A DNA stretch of 38,664 bases from a virus: the IMG/VR virus record IMGVR_UViG_3300006037_000015, positions 1 to 38,664 of that record; one strand, 5' to 3'. Shown piece after piece: positions 4,723-17,626 of the stretch (position 1 is the stretch's first letter; each line of letters opens with the position of its first letter). Position numbers and translations under genes: made by a program. The notes below the pieces were generated by a model. That model ran no database searches, was not told the DNA's origin, and was given only the letters and a program-made list of their open reading frames with translations.

Positions 4723-6819
4723 TTAAAATACGCTACGAACCATCACGCCAACTGCATTACCAGTTAGTCCTGCGACACCTCCTACGTTAAACTGTTTGGC
4801 AATGTTAATGCCTGCATAAGTTGTATTGTTCACGCTTACACTATAACCCATGACCAAATCTGTTTGACGCTTGCTATTAGCAAGGTTAACTCGTTCTGTG
4901 CTGGATACAGGATTTGCAGTCACATCACCATTGGCGTCTTCGGAATAAGTGTAGCTGTTAACTGCTGTTACATCTGCATGACCTTTGCGGATACCAACTG
5001 GACCTTGTACTGCAAAAGTAACTTGGTCTTTGGTCTTACCGCTGAAGAATATTTCTTTCTTGGCCAGGCCCAATTTCCAAGTGTCACTGATAACAGTGGG
5101 ACTCAGTGCCAACATGCTACCATCTGTGTTGTTAGTACGAGTGATACCAAGACCATAACTACCAATTAGATCCACACTGGCTGAGATTGGGGTAGAACCA
5201 CCAACCATTGCATAAGTTGTACCACTATTACCCATACCCAACAATCCAGAACCATAGTTGTTTAAGAAACCGTTTTGTTCTGCCATTGTACCCATTTGTA
5301 CTTGCAGACGACCATCACCATATGCAGTGTCTACTTGAGTTGCAAAACCTGCTTGACTTTGCATAAATGTCACCACAGTGTCTTTGCCGTATGGTGTTGC
5401 AACCTCGTGATAATTGGCAGCGTTCATTGCCAAGTAAGGACTGGTGTATAAACTGTTGGCTGGACTACTGGTACCAATTGCACGAGTAAAGTCTGCTGTA
5501 AAGTTACGATTGATGCCGTCGACTACTTGCACGTTAGCCAACACACTACTCGAACGCAAAGCGTTTGTACTAACTGTACTACCAGTTGCGTTAAGTGTAA
5601 TGCCGCCTACTGCTGTGCCTGATGTTAAAGCTGCCTTGGAGTATTTTACATCAGCATAAGGTTGTGTGGCTTTGTCAAAGTTTACCATGCCTTTACCATA
5701 GATGTTACTATCACCCAATGATGTAGCTGTATTCAACACAACCTGAACCAACTGGCTTGCCTTAAGCTGTGGCCAGGCCTGGTGCATTAATGCAATGCCG
5801 CCACTGACAATAGCAGCCGCTGGGCTTGTGCCGCTGACCCCGCCAGCGCCATCAGTGATACCTTGTTTAATGCCGGCAGTGCTACGAGCCACATCAGGTA
5901 CTGCACCTAAGATAGCTGAGCCAGGAGCAACAACATAAAAGTCTTTAACATAGTATTTGTCTTGACATACATTGTTGACAATCGTTGTGCAAATGCTACC
6001 TGCCTGATTGCTTGTTGGATTCATGACCCAACCACCTTTGCCATTGGCTGCAACATTACCAACAATCAGTACTCGACCGCCCATCAGCAGGTTACCATCA
6101 GCGTCTGTTTGTGTAGCAAATTGGCCAGGAAATTGTGCATAGCCTGTGGCACTGTTACCTGCACTGGCAACAATCACAGCATTTTTAGTAGCTGTTGCAA
6201 AAAGTAAGCTCCTGTCAAATGTCGAGCCGTATAAACTGGCCAAAGAAGTAACTGCTCCGGTCTTTGTATCGTAGTTGGTGTACAAAGGATTGGCTTTATA
6301 AATGCCAGGTGCAATCATTGTTGTGCCAGCTTTGAAGGCAGGGTCGTAAGTGGCGCCAAGACTTAAATTAATTACATTAGCACCTTTAGACTCTGCCCAG
6401 GTCATGGCCTTATATGCCGAAATAATATCCACTGAAGGTGATAGTCCGCCTGCACCAACTTGTGCCAACAAAAGTTTAGCGTCGGGCGCAACACCCACAG
6501 TACCTTTATTGTTGGAAATACCAGCCGCAATACTTGCCATCTGGGTGCCATGCAGGCCCCAGGTCACTGATGAAGCAGGTGAGTAAAAGTTCTTAGAGTC
6601 TAAAACATTGCCTTTGAGGTCAGCATGATTAACGTCAAACCCATTGTCAATGATTGCAATGATTGAGCCTTTGCCTGTAATACCACGGGACCAGGTAGCT
6701 GTCACACCAATGGGTGTAAGGTAGTTTGTTTTTGCCTGGGCTTCTGCGTTGGCAATCTGGGCATGTGCTAGGCCACCGTGTGCAAGTGCAATGGCCAAAA
6801 CTAGAGTTTTAAGTTTCAT
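4723..6819 (-). CDS. secreted subtilisin-like serine protease with beta-rich C-terminal domain
   Basis: 698 aa from the ATG with GAGG 7 nt upstream. A Sec signal peptide is clear (MKLKTLVLAIALAHGGLAHA, cleavage after about residue 20). The S8 catalytic triad is intact: Asp58 (AIIDNGF), His90 (GLHGTQMAS), Ser332 (SGTSPAAA), with oxyanion Asn222 (ASAGNS). Residues from about 420 to the end are Gly/Ser/Thr-rich with alternating hydrophobic strands and end in Phe, as in autotransporter or outer-membrane C-termini. A secreted protease is unusual cargo for a lytic phage; a role in surface remodelling or lysis is speculative. Confidence 0.88.
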   Translation of the reverse strand: MKLKTLVLAIALAHGGLAHAQIANAEAQAKTNYLTPIGVTATWSRGITGKGSIIAIIDNGFDVNHADLKGNVLDSKNFYSPASSVTWGLHGTQMASIAAGISNNKGTVGVAPDAKLLLAQVGAGGLSPSVDIISAYKAMTWAESKGANVINLSLGATYDPAFKAGTTMIAPGIYKANPLYTNYDTKTGAVTSLASLYGSTFDRSLLFATATKNAVIVASAGNSATGYAQFPGQFATQTDADGNLLMGGRVLIVGNVAANGKGGWVMNPTSNQAGSICTTIVNNVCQDKYYVKDFYVVAPGSAILGAVPDVARSTAGIKQGITDGAGGVSGTSPAAAIVSGGIALMHQAWPQLKASQLVQVVLNTATSLGDSNIYGKGMVNFDKATQPYADVKYSKAALTSGTAVGGITLNATGSTVSTNALRSSSVLANVQVVDGINRNFTADFTRAIGTSSPANSLYTSPYLAMNAANYHEVATPYGKDTVVTFMQSQAGFATQVDTAYGDGRLQVQMGTMAEQNGFLNNYGSGLLGMGNSGTTYAMVGGSTPISASVDLIGSYGLGITRTNNTDGSMLALSPTVISDTWKLGLAKKEIFFSGKTKDQVTFAVQGPVGIRKGHADVTAVNSYTYSEDANGDVTANPVSSTERVNLANSKRQTDLVMGYSVSVNNTTYAGINIAKQFNVGGVAGLTGNAVGVMVRSVF

Positions 6820-6832
6820 GTCAGTCCTCTTA

Positions 6833-7225
6833 TTAAACTGTTTCAACGATATAAGGCTTGTCCCACTTACCAATGTTAACATCAATGTACCAGCCCACAT
6901 CAAAGTAATCAGATTGACTATCACTGTTATCGTGATTGCCGTTGTTCAGCGCAGGGATGACTTCGCTCAAGAACTTCTTGGCTTTGCCATCAAAGTGGCT
7001 TTGGTAGTGATAAGGATTAACTTGAATGCCAAACTTTTTAGCATCGTTACGAGATTCAGTAGTATCACCGTAGTCACTGATAAAGTCAATTTTTCCAGAC
7101 TTGACGTTCAGTACAAGAGTGCTATGATGACGAACTGCAATACTAGCCTTAACGCCATACTTTTTACAAATAGCCTTGATCTTAGGTGTCAACTTTGATT
7201 TCAAATCTTGGGAAACGTATGCCAT
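6833..7225 (-). CDS. LPD29-domain-like protein
   Basis: 130 aa, with MAYVSQDLK at the start and ASIAVRHHSTLVLNVKSG in the middle, which I associate with the LPD29 domain found alone in phages and in large polyvalent phage proteins. Function unknown. The start has AGGA 7 nt upstream. It sits behind its own perfect sigma70 promoter, and its leader is a near-copy of the one at 7463-7528, suggesting high early expression. Confidence 0.75.
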   Translation of the reverse strand: MAYVSQDLKSKLTPKIKAICKKYGVKASIAVRHHSTLVLNVKSGKIDFISDYGDTTESRNDAKKFGIQVNPYHYQSHFDGKAKKFLSEVIPALNNGNHDNSDSQSDYFDVGWYIDVNIGKWDKPYIVETV

Positions 7226-12059: not shown

Positions 12060-12067
12060 TACTTATG
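12060..12067 (-). promoter_or_regulatory. late-type element CATAAGTA
   Basis: Ends 5 nt before the ATG at 12054, which has no Shine-Dalgarno. Confidence 0.6.
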
Positions 12068-13265
12068 CTGACATTTGATCTAAATTAGCAGTTGGAATTA
12101 AATAGTACTTGGATCTACATACTGCTACTGTATCAGCACTTCTCATCAGTTTAGGATCGATCTTTTCTAAATATGATTTCCAATGGTATTCCCAGGCCTG
12201 CTGTGATTTATTAAACGTAGGCAATGTTGTAAGGATATTGTCCCAGGCTCTAACCCCCAGCTGTAGGTTATCTAATTGTGAAAAGGGCTTGGCTGCTTGG
12301 AATTTGTTAAAATCCCAATTTGGATAGCACACGAGCTTGACTATTTCACAAATTTCTTCATATTCTGCGTAAAGCTGCTGATAAGTTTTTTGGGCAAAGC
12401 CAGATTCATTGGCTCGTCGAATTTTTTTCCCACGCACAAGATGTAACTTCTCTGGATGATTAGTATACCATTTTGCAACTTTGTATGCTTGTAAAATTGC
12501 CAGCTCTGGAAATTTTGGCGTGATATAAAAGTATTCAGTTCCGTCGGGATTATCTGGATTTGCATGGGCCATGCATGCAGTATCAACAAAACTCATGTAC
12601 CATTTGTCCTTGGCACCCAATGTGACCTGAGCTTTATCTACTCCAAATATACTAGCAACTTTTTTACCAGCAAGTGCTAGTGTACCTTCTGTTGGACTGA
12701 AAGTGTGTTGTTTTTGAGCTCGGGCAATGCTAGGTAAATTACTAACAGCATTTGCAAACAAGTCATCATTATAAAACTTATCAGTGACTGTAGTGGTCCA
12801 ATCAGCGATTTCAATTTTAATTTCAGGATGGTGTTGGCCTAACCATTCTAAATCCTTTTTAAGGACCAGATCCCATTCGCTATGAAAATTTGCATTGCTT
12901 TTGTCTATTGCATTTGGGATGTATAAGCCCCGATCCATTAAACGTTCGGGCCATTGCACAAAAATATGATCTAGCTTGATATTATTTTTTAAAAACGTGT
13001 GCAATATATTGTGACTATCGCTACCGCCGCTGTAGTTCAGGATCAGATAGTCATATGACTCCCGAAGTTGGATTGCACGTTGTTTATACAGTTCTTCAAC
13101 TGACAAATGGTATAACCCAAAGGTGCTGTTGGCCTTTGTAAATACCTCATCGTAAAACCACCAATTAACTTCGGCTTTTTTTTCAGTGGCTCGCAATAAA
13201 GCATATACTTTATTTTCAATAATTTCACCGTCGACTATGTAATATCCATTGAGGTAGTTGTTCAT
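12063..13265 (-). CDS. PP-loop ATP pyrophosphatase, asparagine-synthetase-like
   Basis: 400 aa. NYSGGSDSHN (PP-loop at residues 79-84) is the signature of N-type ATP pyrophosphatases, which adenylate a substrate before amidation or thiolation (asparagine synthase, QueC, tRNA thiolation families). No glutaminase domain is present; residues 1-70 are a short N-terminal extension. Substrate unknown; neighbours suggest small-molecule or surface modification. ATG follows CATAAGTA by 5 nt, with no Shine-Dalgarno. Confidence 0.65.
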   Translation of the reverse strand: MNNYLNGYYIVDGEIIENKVYALLRATEKKAEVNWWFYDEVFTKANSTFGLYHLSVEELYKQRAIQLRESYDYLILNYSGGSDSHNILHTFLKNNIKLDHIFVQWPERLMDRGLYIPNAIDKSNANFHSEWDLVLKKDLEWLGQHHPEIKIEIADWTTTVTDKFYNDDLFANAVSNLPSIARAQKQHTFSPTEGTLALAGKKVASIFGVDKAQVTLGAKDKWYMSFVDTACMAHANPDNPDGTEYFYITPKFPELAILQAYKVAKWYTNHPEKLHLVRGKKIRRANESGFAQKTYQQLYAEYEEICEIVKLVCYPNWDFNKFQAAKPFSQLDNLQLGVRAWDNILTTLPTFNKSQQAWEYHWKSYLEKIDPKLMRSADTVAVCRSKYYLIPTANLDQMSA

Positions 13266-13569: not shown

Positions 13570-14286
13570 CTATAGTCTAGGCTGTTTATCCATAATAATC
13601 AGTTGACTACGATGTTGAGCATTGTATTTTTTTAGTACAATACCAATGTGCAATTTGACTGTACTTTCGCTAATACCTAAACGTTTAGCAATCTGATGAT
13701 TTGTCATTCCATGAGTACAGATCATTTGGTAAATCTGCTCTTGTCTAAATGTCAATGCTATTCCCATAGTATTGGGTGTTGCCAATTTTATTTTTTTATC
13801 TACCACAGCATTCAAAGACCAGTGAGATGGATCCTTCTTACTGAGATATATACTTTCTTGGGCAGCGTCAATTCCATGCCACTTTGGCGAAAGAGAGCAG
13901 CCAACAAATCCTGCTTGTACTAGGCTTTCATAGTGTGTATTACTAATACTATCTCCAACAGTGCCAGTGATCAGACATTCTTTAGGTTTTTCGGCAAGTC
14001 TGTTAGCAGTTATTTTCAAAGTTAACTTGAGCAAATCGTACGCGTCTTTAAAGTTTAAATTTCTTTCTATTAGCCCATTGTAACCAACTATTACTGTATC
14101 TGGAATCTCGCTGTAGCTTGTTATTGCGTTTAACCGTTGCATAAACTGTTCTATATCTTTGCTTACACTAACAGTTGCAGGTTGCTTGGCCATAAATCCG
14201 ACTATGTCTTTTTTCTGCTTTAACGTTAAAGGTACCCCGTTTAACGGCTTTAAAAATCCTGGTGAAATTATTGCTGTTCTGTTCAT
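13570..14286 (-). CDS. LuxR-family regulator with degenerate N-terminal domain
   Basis: 238 aa. The C-terminal 60 residues are a LuxR HTH (LTFRQEQIYQMICTHGMTNH, then IAKRLGISESTVKLH). The N-terminal ~170 residues have alternating beta/alpha segments like a receiver (PDTVIVGYNG, ECLITGTVGD, FVGCSLS), but I cannot find the usual Asp/Lys set. Its ATG overlaps the TGA of the Bug-type gene (ATGA), so the two are translationally coupled and probably work together. Confidence 0.75.
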   Translation of the reverse strand: MNRTAIISPGFLKPLNGVPLTLKQKKDIVGFMAKQPATVSVSKDIEQFMQRLNAITSYSEIPDTVIVGYNGLIERNLNFKDAYDLLKLTLKITANRLAEKPKECLITGTVGDSISNTHYESLVQAGFVGCSLSPKWHGIDAAQESIYLSKKDPSHWSLNAVVDKKIKLATPNTMGIALTFRQEQIYQMICTHGMTNHQIAKRLGISESTVKLHIGIVLKKYNAQHRSQLIIMDKQPRL

Positions 14287-15137
14287 TGCTGTTTATACTT
14301 CATTATAACGTTATCCAAACTTTTTGGTCCGGTACTGGTGTAGCGTTCAACGCTAATTTCGTTTAAGAGCCGTTTAAAATCGTTATCATTCATCAATCCT
14401 TGCACAAACTTGTTCCAGAAAATATTTGATTCGTTTGGAGAGTGTACAGGCAAAAATAATGCTGTACCATTGGCTTTAGTTAACATTTTTTGTTTTGTTG
14501 ATTCATCAATATCCACAATAGTCAAATGTCCAATGGCCGCTAATGATTCTGCTGCACGTGGTAAAATAAATCCCAAATCTACGTCACCATTGATAATACT
14601 TGAATGGAATCCAGTTGATATTGAAAACGGAACTTTATAAATTTTGTTTACATCTAAGTAGCTGGCTTTGACTAAATTGTCGATTTGATGCAGTTGCGCA
14701 GATGACGCATGAGCCCATGTCAACTTACCACTAGTTTCTTGTTCTTGTTTAACAATATCGTCGATATTTCTAATTTTACTTTTCTTGCTAGCAACAAGGG
14801 TTAATGCAGTTTTAGTCAATGGTGTTACGTTATCAAATTCTTTGGAATTTGCCGATTCTACATAGTCACTGAGCGTTGCCAGTAAAAGAGTATCACCATC
14901 TGGCTTTGCTTTACTAGCATAGCTTATTCCAATCTTACCGGCTGCACCAGGTTTAAACACAGGTATCATGTTTATATTCTGTTTCGAAGCATAGGCTTCC
15001 ATATAATTAAAAACAGTAGCCAATCCACTGGCTGATGAGTTTGGTATAACAACCTTGATAATTTTATTTTCTGCCGTGTACGCAGCATGAGCAACTGAAC
15101 AAATAGATACTGCTAGTAATACTAAAAACTTTTTCAT
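14283..15137 (-). CDS. Bug/TctC-type periplasmic solute-binding protein
   Basis: 284 aa from the ATG with AAGGA 8 nt upstream. Signal peptide MKKFLVLLAVSICSVAHA. The segment FKPGAAGKIGISYASKAKPD followed by GDTLLLAT is the ligand-loop signature of the tripartite tricarboxylate transporter binding proteins (PGxGGxxG...AxxxPDGxTLL). Known members bind carboxylates in the periplasm and are greatly expanded in Burkholderiales. No TctA/TctB partner is in view, so it would use host transporters or act as a sensor. Sigma70 promoter upstream. Confidence 0.85.
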   Translation of the reverse strand: MKKFLVLLAVSICSVAHAAYTAENKIIKVVIPNSSASGLATVFNYMEAYASKQNINMIPVFKPGAAGKIGISYASKAKPDGDTLLLATLSDYVESANSKEFDNVTPLTKTALTLVASKKSKIRNIDDIVKQEQETSGKLTWAHASSAQLHQIDNLVKASYLDVNKIYKVPFSISTGFHSSIINGDVDLGFILPRAAESLAAIGHLTIVDIDESTKQKMLTKANGTALFLPVHSPNESNIFWNKFVQGLMNDNDFKRLLNEISVERYTSTGPKSLDNVIMKYKQQ

Positions 15138-15172
15138 CAATGCAATCCTTGTAAATTTTAAATGAATAATAC

Positions 15173-15242: not shown

Positions 15243-15269
15243 AAAAGGAAAGCACCCGAAGGTGCTTTC
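15243..15269 (-). terminator. Rho-independent terminator of the tmRNA
   Basis: GAAAGCACC-TTCG-GGTGCTTTC followed by CTTTT on the minus strand: a 9-bp stem closed by a UUCG tetraloop. Confidence 0.93.
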
Positions 15270-15595
15270 TTGTTATTTTCTGTTACGAGGTATAACTACC
15301 CTAAGCAGTGTTTAGGCTGCTAATGCGTAACTTTCGTCATTTGCATTTATTTTTGTTTTGCTTCTACGACCAGGTTACCCCAATCCTAACGGCTTCTACA
15401 TTGCCGAGCGATAGAACACATACTTGATACCCAATCGAGAACCAGTTTGGGCCCATTATAAAACACACTACAGTACGACCACAACATACAAAAGACCTGG
15501 AAGTCAAAATGCTGTGCAGTAATATGCTTTATGGTGGACCCACCGAGATTCGAACTCGGTTCTTGAATATTTTTCAGTCCCTACTTTACGCTGTT
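15270..15595 (-). ncRNA. ssrA: circularly permuted (two-piece) tmRNA
   Basis: Minus-strand order is permuted. The acceptor piece comes first: GTAAAGTAGGGACTG, then a T arm with loop TTCGAAT, TGGGTCC, A and CCA ending at 15532. A 77-nt intervening segment (15531-15455) follows, then the 5' piece from 15454 (GGGCCCA, pairing with TGGGTCC over 7 bp), the TGG..TTCTCGATTGGG D-like region, a pseudoknot region and the tag frame. The tag at 15344-15315 reads ANDESYALAA with stop TAA (15314-15312). Helix 5 (TAGCAG/CTGCTTA) is conserved. tmRNA rescues stalled ribosomes with SmpB, encoded immediately upstream. The 5' boundary is inferred from a late-type element. Confidence 0.93.
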
Positions 15596-15600
15596 CAATT

Positions 15601-15608
15601 TACTTATG
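15601..15608 (-). promoter_or_regulatory. late-type element CATAAGTA before the tmRNA
   Basis: CATAAGTA overlaps the smpB stop codon. By the spacing seen at other genes, RNA would begin near 15595, just ahead of the acceptor piece. Confidence 0.5.
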
Positions 15609-16029
15609 CTAACTTTTGGCTTTTGACAATCTTTCGTGTTTCTAACTCGATATCACGCTTCTTATCAGTTTCTCGCTTGTCGTATTCTTTCTTACCACGA
15701 GCAACACCAATTGATAACTTAAACTTCCCATTCTTATTATACAATTTTAACGGGATAAGTGTCAAGCCTTTTTCCCTTGTTTTGCCAACAAGACGATTTA
15801 TTTCTTTACGATGTAGCAATAGCTTGCGAGTACGTTGTTGCTCATTCGCAGATGAGCCTATACTTGCTCCAATCAAAAATACATCGCTGTCAAGGACCTT
15901 ACAGTGTGATCCTACTATGGCGCACACTTTGTTGGCAATGGCTTTTACTTCCCACGACTCTAGCATAATACCACACTCGTACTCTTCGAGTATTTCGTAA
16001 TCGTAGTAGGCTTTTTTATTTTCGAACAT
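15604..16029 (-). CDS. smpB: SsrA-binding protein SmpB
   Basis: 141 aa, slightly shorter than the usual ~150-160. Family blocks are in order: YDYEILEEYECGIMLESWEV, RTRKLLLHRKEI, the beta-strand LIPLKLYNKNGKFKLSIGVA, then RGKKEYDKRE and a basic C-terminal tail (KKRDIELETRKIVKSQKLA) which in known SmpB enters the mRNA channel. It binds tmRNA and delivers it to stalled ribosomes. Its stop is 9 nt from the predicted start of the tmRNA. It has its own sigma70 promoter with the -10 inside a perfect palindrome. Phage-encoded SmpB is rare. Confidence 0.95.
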   Translation of the reverse strand: MFENKKAYYDYEILEEYECGIMLESWEVKAIANKVCAIVGSHCKVLDSDVFLIGASIGSSANEQQRTRKLLLHRKEINRLVGKTREKGLTLIPLKLYNKNGKFKLSIGVARGKKEYDKRETDKKRDIELETRKIVKSQKLA

Positions 16030-16030
16030 A

Positions 16031-16065
16031 TGCTATATTATAGCATCAGAACACTAATCTGTCAA
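16031..16065 (-). promoter_or_regulatory. sigma70 promoter of smpB with palindromic -10
   Basis: TTGACA (16065-16060), 17-bp spacer, TATAAT (16042-16037). The -10 is centred in TGCTATATTATAGCA (16031-16045), a perfect inverted repeat that ends right at the start codon region. Confidence 0.88.
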
Positions 16066-16069
16066 TGGT

Positions 16070-17626
16070 TTAAGAAAGCTGTTCAGCTGATATTTGTTTC
16101 GATACTATTTCATCGAAATAACGTTTTCTCCACTCTTTAGCTACTATGTTTGCAGCCTGCAAGAAGGGAATGTCAGTTTCATATATACGTGCAACATCGC
16201 TAATAGGGTACCCAAGTGTACCGTATGCCAACAGTGTCCATTCGTTTAGTCGATTGTGTTCGCGACGGCCGTGTGTTAATGTTCGTTCAAGTCTTGCACA
16301 AGCCATTCTATCGCTTAGATTAGTATTGTTTGAATTTTCCCATTTTGGTACAGGATCTTCCTTTGATATAATGTTAATAACTTTATAACCATATTTGGCA
16401 GCATCTGTTTCAAACTCGCTTACATACTTGCCAGTTTTACCAATATCTCGAATGAATAGTGCTTTGAAGCTTGCACTTTGGATGTCAATACGTTTCGCCC
16501 ATTCAAAACTTTCCATTACTGATTCAGCTGTTTCTGGAGTTAGTCCAATTATAAAACTTAAGAAAATACTTACGTCGTCGCCCCAAATTTCTTTGCGAAG
16601 CTTTTCGATAAATGGCTTTGCATGTGGACCACCATTCCAACCCTTCCCAACGACTTTGGCTGCTTCTGGATGCATACTTTCAATTCCAAAAAATGCAGCT
16701 TTCAATCCAGCTTCCTTTAACCATACAGCAGTTTCTGGTCTGGACCAGACCAAGTCAACACGTATGTATGCGCTAAACTCAAGTTTAAATGGCAATGTCA
16801 ATGCCATGTCTCTAAATTCTTTTACTTTATCTGGATCATCATTAAATGTGTCATCTAGCATGAAGTAGCGTGTAATGCCCCATTTTTCGTAGTTACGTCT
16901 AATTTCGTGCTCAACATGCTCAAATCTACGAACTGCTTCGCCTTTCTTTTTACCAATTTCTGGGTAAGAGCAAAATTTACATTTAAAAATACAACCGCGT
17001 GCTGTTTCCAATGGTAGTGTTTCGCCGGGTTGTACGCCATCATCATCGTGCCAGGTAAAATCATCTGTTTGAATATTGTACGGCGCATCTAACCCAGGCC
17101 AACTTAATAAAAAGAATCCAGGTGCCTGTTCTTTAAACATTGGAACTGGACTATTGTTTGTTATAAAATTATGCAAATTAACTGCATGTCCTTCGGCATA
17201 TCCGGCAAAGCCGTAATCAAAGTTTTTCAAATCATCTGCAGCCAATGAATCGGCCATTACTCCGCCAATAACCCGCTTAATAGATGGGTATAGTTCTTTA
17301 ATAGTTCCAAATGCATTGTCAATTTCAGCATTGATACCAGCTCTGCGTTGTCGTCTCAAAATTGTTGTAGTGCCGTCGGCGTTCTTAATAGGTGTTTCGA
17401 TTGTTTCAGCCATGAATGTACTGCTAAATCCTATCCAGGCAGTATCATCTGTAATGAAAAGTTTTAACAAGTCAACCAGTTCTGTGCGTGTATGCTTGTC
17501 AATGAAGTCGATTACTTTTACAGATATACCTGCTTTCCGTAATGTGTGTGCGACTTTATACGACCCTATTGATCGCATAGGGGCAGCACCGCTGCGCCAG
17601 ACTCCGTTTAAAAGAATTACTTGCAT
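16070..17626 (-). CDS. radical SAM enzyme with N-terminal B12-binding-like domain
   Basis: 518 aa. The radical SAM cluster motif is Cys212-x3-Cys216-x2-Cys219 (GCIFKCKFC). The first ~180 residues have the layout of a B12-binding (Rossmann) domain as in class B radical SAM enzymes (MQVILLNGVW..., VIGGVMADS, DYGFAGYAEGHAV). EFSAYIRVD and KAAFFGIES match later barrel strands of B12/radical SAM proteins. Likely a methyltransferase or C-C/C-S bond enzyme; substrate unknown. A TATAAATA late element lies ~55 nt upstream of ATG. Confidence 0.85.
   Translation of the reverse strand: MQVILLNGVWRSGAAPMRSIGSYKVAHTLRKAGISVKVIDFIDKHTRTELVDLLKLFITDDTAWIGFSSTFMAETIETPIKNADGTTTILRRQRRAGINAEIDNAFGTIKELYPSIKRVIGGVMADSLAADDLKNFDYGFAGYAEGHAVNLHNFITNNSPVPMFKEQAPGFFLLSWPGLDAPYNIQTDDFTWHDDDGVQPGETLPLETARGCIFKCKFCSYPEIGKKKGEAVRRFEHVEHEIRRNYEKWGITRYFMLDDTFNDDPDKVKEFRDMALTLPFKLEFSAYIRVDLVWSRPETAVWLKEAGLKAAFFGIESMHPEAAKVVGKGWNGGPHAKPFIEKLRKEIWGDDVSIFLSFIIGLTPETAESVMESFEWAKRIDIQSASFKALFIRDIGKTGKYVSEFETDAAKYGYKVINIISKEDPVPKWENSNNTNLSDRMACARLERTLTHGRREHNRLNEWTLLAYGTLGYPISDVARIYETDIPFLQAANIVAKEWRKRYFDEIVSKQISAEQLS

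Follow-up and report, generated by a model that had tools for sequence, protein, structure and literature searches.

A T4-like phage carries smpB next to a circularly permuted tmRNA gene

The DNA analysed here, hereafter the window, is a stretch of 38,664 nucleotides that corresponds to positions 1 to 38,664 of the IMG/VR virus record IMGVR_UViG_3300006037_000015. In the window, a gene for the SsrA-binding protein SmpB is followed closely by a gene for a two-piece tmRNA, and this module is embedded among the genes of a T4-like phage. We found that the two partners of this split-RNA trans-translation system are kept together in related phages of up to 385 kb, that both are under selection and that they have apparently been exchanged among these phages. 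Judged from its sequence, the module is real, conserved and very probably functional, and we consider it likely that it would serve a T4-like phage as a self-contained trans-translation module for ribosome rescue in the infected cell.

Structure of the smpB gene and the tmRNA gene

The whole module lies on the minus strand, and the span given for it by the sequence-only reading (15243-16065) also takes in a promoter at 16065-16037. The smpB gene (15604..16029, minus strand; stop codon at 15606-15604) encodes a protein of 141 amino acids. The sequence-only reading had called this protein SmpB, and the profile searches bear this out: it matches Pfam PF01668 with 150 bits (cut-off 27) and scores above both NCBIfam equivalog cut-offs (NF003843, 155.1 against 130; TIGR00086, 139.9 against 119.1). 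An AlphaFold model of the protein (pLDDT 72) matched 20 SmpB chains, including structures of SmpB with tmRNA on the ribosome, and no other fold at E ≤ 0.001. The phage SmpB retains RGKKEYDKR, an instance of the GKK-x-x-DKR motif, and a conserved C-terminal tail that ends in RKIVKSQKLA. Its internal loop is six or seven residues shorter (NITPMAVASTHVVCDPT in E. coli vs SIGSSANEQQ in the phage), and this deletion, with the SmpB of E. coli, Neisseria, Variovorax and Lak as the reference, is common to all eight members of the phage clade described below.

The Rfam beta_tmRNA model RF01850 matches the permuted tmRNA gene end to end (15248..15639, minus strand, read from 15639 to 15248) with 103.6 bits, an E value of 1.3e-30 and a gathering score of 84. 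The general permuted model RF04321 scores 85.2 bits (gathering 47) over 15592..15312, and ARAGORN independently called a tmRNA* at 15624-15221 with the tag ANDESYALAA. A chance match is excluded by the E value together with the comparisons with relatives given below. The RNA is of the betaproteobacterial type, and its permuted order and its pairing with SmpB in one module are as the sequence-only reading had described them. That reading had placed the tmRNA 9 nt after smpB; the close spacing stands, and the distance is about 10 nt, with the exact figure hinging on the mature 5′ end.

The acceptor piece (15532..15592, minus strand; 5′ end predicted) contains the T arm, the 3′ acceptor strand UGGGUCC and an ACCA end, with CCA finishing at 15532. 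It is followed by an intervening segment of 77 nt (15455..15531, minus strand), which is predicted from the sequence to be lost during maturation. The coding piece (15271..15454, minus strand; 3′ end predicted) begins at G1, position 15454, and carries GGGCCCA, a D-loop-like region, the resume site, the tag and the 3′ region. The tag reading frame assigned by ARAGORN, ANDESYALAA followed by UAA, occupies 15312..15344 on the minus strand. GGGCCCA and TGGGTCC form all seven pairs of the acceptor stem, the alanine identity pair G3-U70 among them, and the T stem has all five of its pairs. Direct reading of the bases confirmed the CCA, the T arm, the 77-nt spacer, the 7-bp acceptor complement and the tag. 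The RNA had also been described as complete with its terminator: a terminator-like hairpin, GAAAGCACC-UUCG-GGUGCUUUC, is present at 15248..15269 on the minus strand (read from 15269 to 15248), and the tmRNA of one relative (L004) ends in the same hairpin, but the U-tract that follows it in the window (CTTTTGGC) is weak.

Phage context, relatives and selection

As had been proposed, the module lies in phage DNA and not in a bacterial chromosome. The contig encodes DnaB, primase, helicase, exonuclease and virion-protein families (PHROGs), and its NrdA is 69% identical to those of T4-like cyanophages (cyanomyophages) and the pelagiphage Mosig. Three viral contigs (G002, G003, G004) are syntenic with the window around the module, with phage genes on both sides, and two large relatives of 369 and 385 kb (G009, G015) encode the T4-type capsid protein Gp23.

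The neighbouring genes include some unusual phage cargo. Downstream of the tmRNA, 13570-15140 encodes a LuxR-type regulator together with a protein that weakly resembles the tricarboxylate receptor TctC. On the other side, a Radical SAM protein (16070-17626; 80% identity in G002) adjoins smpB and is closest to B12-binding P-methyltransferase families, with scores below the cut-offs. Farther away are a 733-amino-acid protein (4723-6924; relative at 46% in G003), in which a subtilase domain (PF00082, 116.7 bits) is joined to a long, unclassified C-terminal region, and a 400-amino-acid protein (12063-13265) that has no Pfam match and contains an SGGSDS motif resembling PP-loop ATPases.

Our scans of viral records found seven further IMG/VR lineages whose SmpB is 65-96% identical to that of the window; most of the records are fragments. 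Together with the window they form one SmpB clade (support 100/99), separate from the bacterial and remaining viral sequences sampled, in a tree whose bacterial sampling was limited and included no Burkholderiales chromosome. A link to Burkholderiales, raised by the sequence-only reading, is made plausible by the RNA model, but in the tree the phage SmpB stands apart from the beta and gamma sequences that were sampled. One scan of genome contigs returned Phycisphaerae SmpB only, at 33-35%, and the tmRNA gave short matches only when it was searched as DNA against phages and plasmids.

A permuted tmRNA is present in all seven lineages (L002, L003, L004 (= L005), L006, L035 (= L036), L037 and the 385-kb record of L076). 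It lies less than 40 nt downstream of smpB in L004, L006 and L035, about 0.1 kb away in L037, 0.4 kb away in L003 and about 2.2 kb away in L002, where several small ORFs intervene. In the 385-kb record (L076; G015) the two genes are about 14 kb apart, indicating that tight physical coupling of smpB and tmRNA is not required. In this lineage a tRNA-Gln follows smpB, and the tmRNA 14 kb off was found by a search of the whole record. The L035 tmRNA scores only 37 bits, under the gathering score, but its acceptor and T stems are complete, ARAGORN calls it and the conserved region downstream is present. None of the 13 contigs with a more distant viral SmpB, each searched whole, contained a permuted tmRNA. 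Two further contigs (L130, L133) picked up by a D-loop pattern scan were rejected as chance matches; they have no Rfam or ARAGORN tmRNA, and the matching stretches are GC-rich and coding-like. A scan for the acceptor piece, with a pattern that was too strict, gave no match. The 385-kb T4-like phage contig also carries many tRNAs and, a few kb from smpB, a GOLLD RNA (RF02032, 212 bits; L076:5866-6284).

Both partners show the marks of selection. In an alignment built by hand from the two pieces, a procedure that favours pairing, all 12 acceptor- and T-stem pairs are formed in each of the eight distinct phage tmRNAs. Eight of the 12 pairs vary on both sides, G1-C72, G2-C71 and G3-U70 are invariant, and the encoded CCA, like G3-U70, is found in all eight RNAs. 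Changes on both sides of a pair occupy 29 cells, compared with 10.3 in shuffles (none of 500 shuffles reached 29), and the pairing falls to 34-66% when the partner strand is shifted along. For smpB, dN/dS is 0.05-0.09 (NG86) or 0.11-0.16 (YN00) among the pairs with estimable dS; it is not estimable against the distant members because dS is saturated. In addition, one contig (G001) is close to the window in the DNA of the module, with 92.7% identity for SmpB and 83.8% for the tmRNA, while the other proteins common to the two are only 26-51% identical, much as in G007, whose SmpB protein has 70% identity to that of the window. This pattern is best read as an apparent exchange of the module between phages, although the position of smpB close to the end of the G001 contig leaves some chance of an assembly join.

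These data also bear on whether the module is unselected, either as passive cargo or as a piece of host DNA that the phage or the assembly has picked up. The genes smpB and ssrA often adjoin integration sites, and in the phage collection many of the records with smpB resemble prophage or chromosome pieces. However, the flanking phage genes, the synteny with G002, G003 and G004 and the Gp23 genes of G009 and G015, together with the strongly supported separate SmpB clade, the low dN/dS and the covarying stems, already contradict such an origin, which we regard as extremely improbable. An assembly artefact or captured host DNA in particular is rejected on the strength of the synteny, the separate clade and the selection.

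Expression signals, tags and a possible role in infection

A σ70 promoter with a full consensus match (12/12; TTGACA-N17-TATAAT with an extended −10 TG; 16037..16065, minus strand) ends 7 nt upstream of the smpB ATG. The smpB promoters of L003 (12/12) and L004 (11/12) are 5 nt from the ATG, and L035 has, by eye, a weaker promoter of like arrangement. Since transcription from such a promoter would start at or next to the ATG, a leaderless smpB message is predicted, with the promoter placement kept in at least three contigs (the window, L003 and L004). A second promoter-like site, TTGACA-N18-TATAAT (12/12), lies inside smpB (15736..15765, minus strand) and is a candidate for a separate tmRNA promoter, but it may be due to chance because it is not conserved in L002, L003 and L004. 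These three contigs have another perfect promoter directly upstream of the tmRNA, which the window lacks. The window contains six perfect promoter sites, all on the minus strand. Because the promoters are of the host type, the module may be expressed early. Two perfect σ70 promoters (1063, 1169) lie within a row of seven tRNA genes at 61-1281.

The data above establish the gene content, the architecture of the RNA, the selection on both partners and their co-inheritance. From these features we infer how the module would be transcribed, how its RNA would be processed and charged, and what its activity, timing and benefit would be. Host RNA polymerase would transcribe smpB and the downstream permuted ssrA from the strong σ70 promoter, probably early in infection, and host tRNA-processing enzymes would cut the precursor into the acceptor and coding pieces, which would pair as a tRNA-like body. 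The host AlaRS, recognizing G3-U70, would charge the two-piece tmRNA with alanine. The phage SmpB would then bind the charged tmRNA, and EF-Tu would bring the complex to ribosomes that have stalled on a broken or non-stop mRNA; there the tmRNA would free the ribosome and append ANDESYALAA, a degradation tag of the ClpXP type. By supplying both partners, the phage could keep ribosomes available to itself when much mRNA is being broken, be it by the decay of host RNA, by defences or toxins that cleave mRNA, or by nucleases of the phage. A precedent for phage growth that depends on trans-translation is λimmP22, which infects E. coli without smpB or ssrA ~10^4-fold more poorly (PMC2862035). A tmRNA and an SmpB are probably encoded by the host as well, which leaves the need for a second set unexplained and counts against ribosome rescue as the role. 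The small cassette offers a means of testing whether ribosome rescue contributes to phage fitness, for instance when the host defends itself by cleaving mRNA.

The tags differ within the clade. Those of the window, L002, L003, L004 and L037 have 10-12 amino acids and the canonical ALAA end; the short tags comprise ANDESYALAA, which is identical in the window and L002, ANDETPYALAA, ANDSQFALAA and ANDSFYTEALAA. Three tags are longer: ATAYTTSVSQLDLSALDDVEEAIAA in L006 (25 amino acids, ending in EEAIAA; L006:5708-5785), ANNVSTEFASFDLSAFADAEVAFA in L112 (24 amino acids, ending in EVAFA; L112:1459-1533) and ANANVTSGVKMTVAKGFRFGGSKVAATEAAFA in L035 (32 amino acids, ending in AAFA; L035:4688-4786). 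In all three, the stop codon is 9-15 nt ahead of the conserved GGG(G)(C/U)AG element; the ends of the long tags are probably real because the same spacing is found in most members with short tags. The L006 and L112 tags share the core D-L-S-A-x-x-D-x-E-x-A, and the codon differences between them are mostly synonymous.

This divergence, including the shared core, would suit a phage pair that acts chiefly by putting a phage-chosen tag on nascent proteins and so altering their fate, through a different protease, escape from ClpXP or the recycling of host proteins. According to a 2014 review, ALAA is highly conserved in bacterial tags except in Mycoplasma, where tags end in AFA and ClpXP is missing (PMC3985003), so that the AFA ends seen here are otherwise given for bacteria without this protease. 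However, five of the phage tags keep the canonical end, and we regard redirection of tagging as the main role as unlikely. The sequence-only reading had raised it for the window, whose ordinary ALAA tag, for which ClpXP is expected, does not support the idea; it rests on L035, L006 and L112, where the tags are clearly altered. Within one clade, the series from canonical ALAA to long AFA ends forms a natural experiment on the purpose of the tag during infection.

Ribosome rescue, our preferred reading, might also take a more specialized form, which we consider rather unlikely: the phages may have rebuilt the pair for infection as an orthogonal one, in which the loop-deleted SmpB, made from a leaderless message, would be specific to the two-piece tmRNA of the phage and some tags would steer their products off ClpXP. 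Such a pair would work when host translation is damaged, with the steering done by the long tags that end in AFA or IAA.

Comparison with known phage and plasmid systems

Each half of the module is known in viruses, and the adjacent two-piece pairing and the odd tags of the relatives appear not to have been known before. We found no paper on an adjacent pair of SmpB and two-piece tmRNA, within an incomplete coverage of the literature. Huge phages with both tmRNA and SmpB have been published (PMC7162821). Like the window phage, Lak-A2 and Lak-B5 have tmRNA and SmpB in one genome, but their tmRNAs are one-piece (RF00023) and far from smpB, and their SmpB, 34-37% identical to that of the window, belongs to another clade. 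No tmRNA above the cut-off was found in phages of 634, 642 and 735 kb. Two-piece tmRNAs have been reported in the methylophage Melnitz and the pelagiphage Mosig, and 53 of 133 unique phage tmRNA structures were predicted to be two-piece (PMC9004378). Both are aquatic T4-like myophages and have a permuted tmRNA in common with the window (RF04321, 93.6 bits in Mosig), whereas the tmRNA of Mosig is of the alpha type (RF01849) and Mosig has no SmpB. Among 50,697 phage records, 66 matched in an SmpB search, all below 60% identity and none above 45% among the matches listed; the organism counts of this search named no Pelagibacter, Methylophilales or Synechococcus phage.

The mycobacteriophage DS6A encodes a TLD-only tmRNA that was proposed to block host trans-translation (PMC4131195; PMC11915505). 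Both DS6A and the window thus have a phage-encoded tmRNA-like RNA, and that of DS6A has no tag frame and is thought to be inhibitory, whereas the window RNA is complete. With this precedent, the phage RNA or SmpB could be a decoy that competes with and blocks host trans-translation, and the divergent, loop-deleted SmpB could poison complexes. However, the full tag frame with its stop, the resume-site context and G3-U70 are kept in all lineages, as is the SmpB tail. Because a decoy needs neither the tag frame nor the tail, their retention counts against a decoy, which seems very unlikely to us.

A bacterial counterpart is plasmid 2 of Variovorax sp. SRS16, which like the window has smpB and a permuted tmRNA that matches RF01850 (109.7 vs 103.6 bits). 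In contrast to the window, the plasmid tmRNA is upstream of smpB, its tag is ANESNFRLAA and its SmpB, 39% identical to that of L037, is without the loop deletion. On this plasmid (NZ_LR594667.1, 801 kb; L057:1447-1947 and L111:1435-1780) the tmRNA lies directly upstream of smpB, and plasmids of three other Variovorax strains carry a similar smpB.
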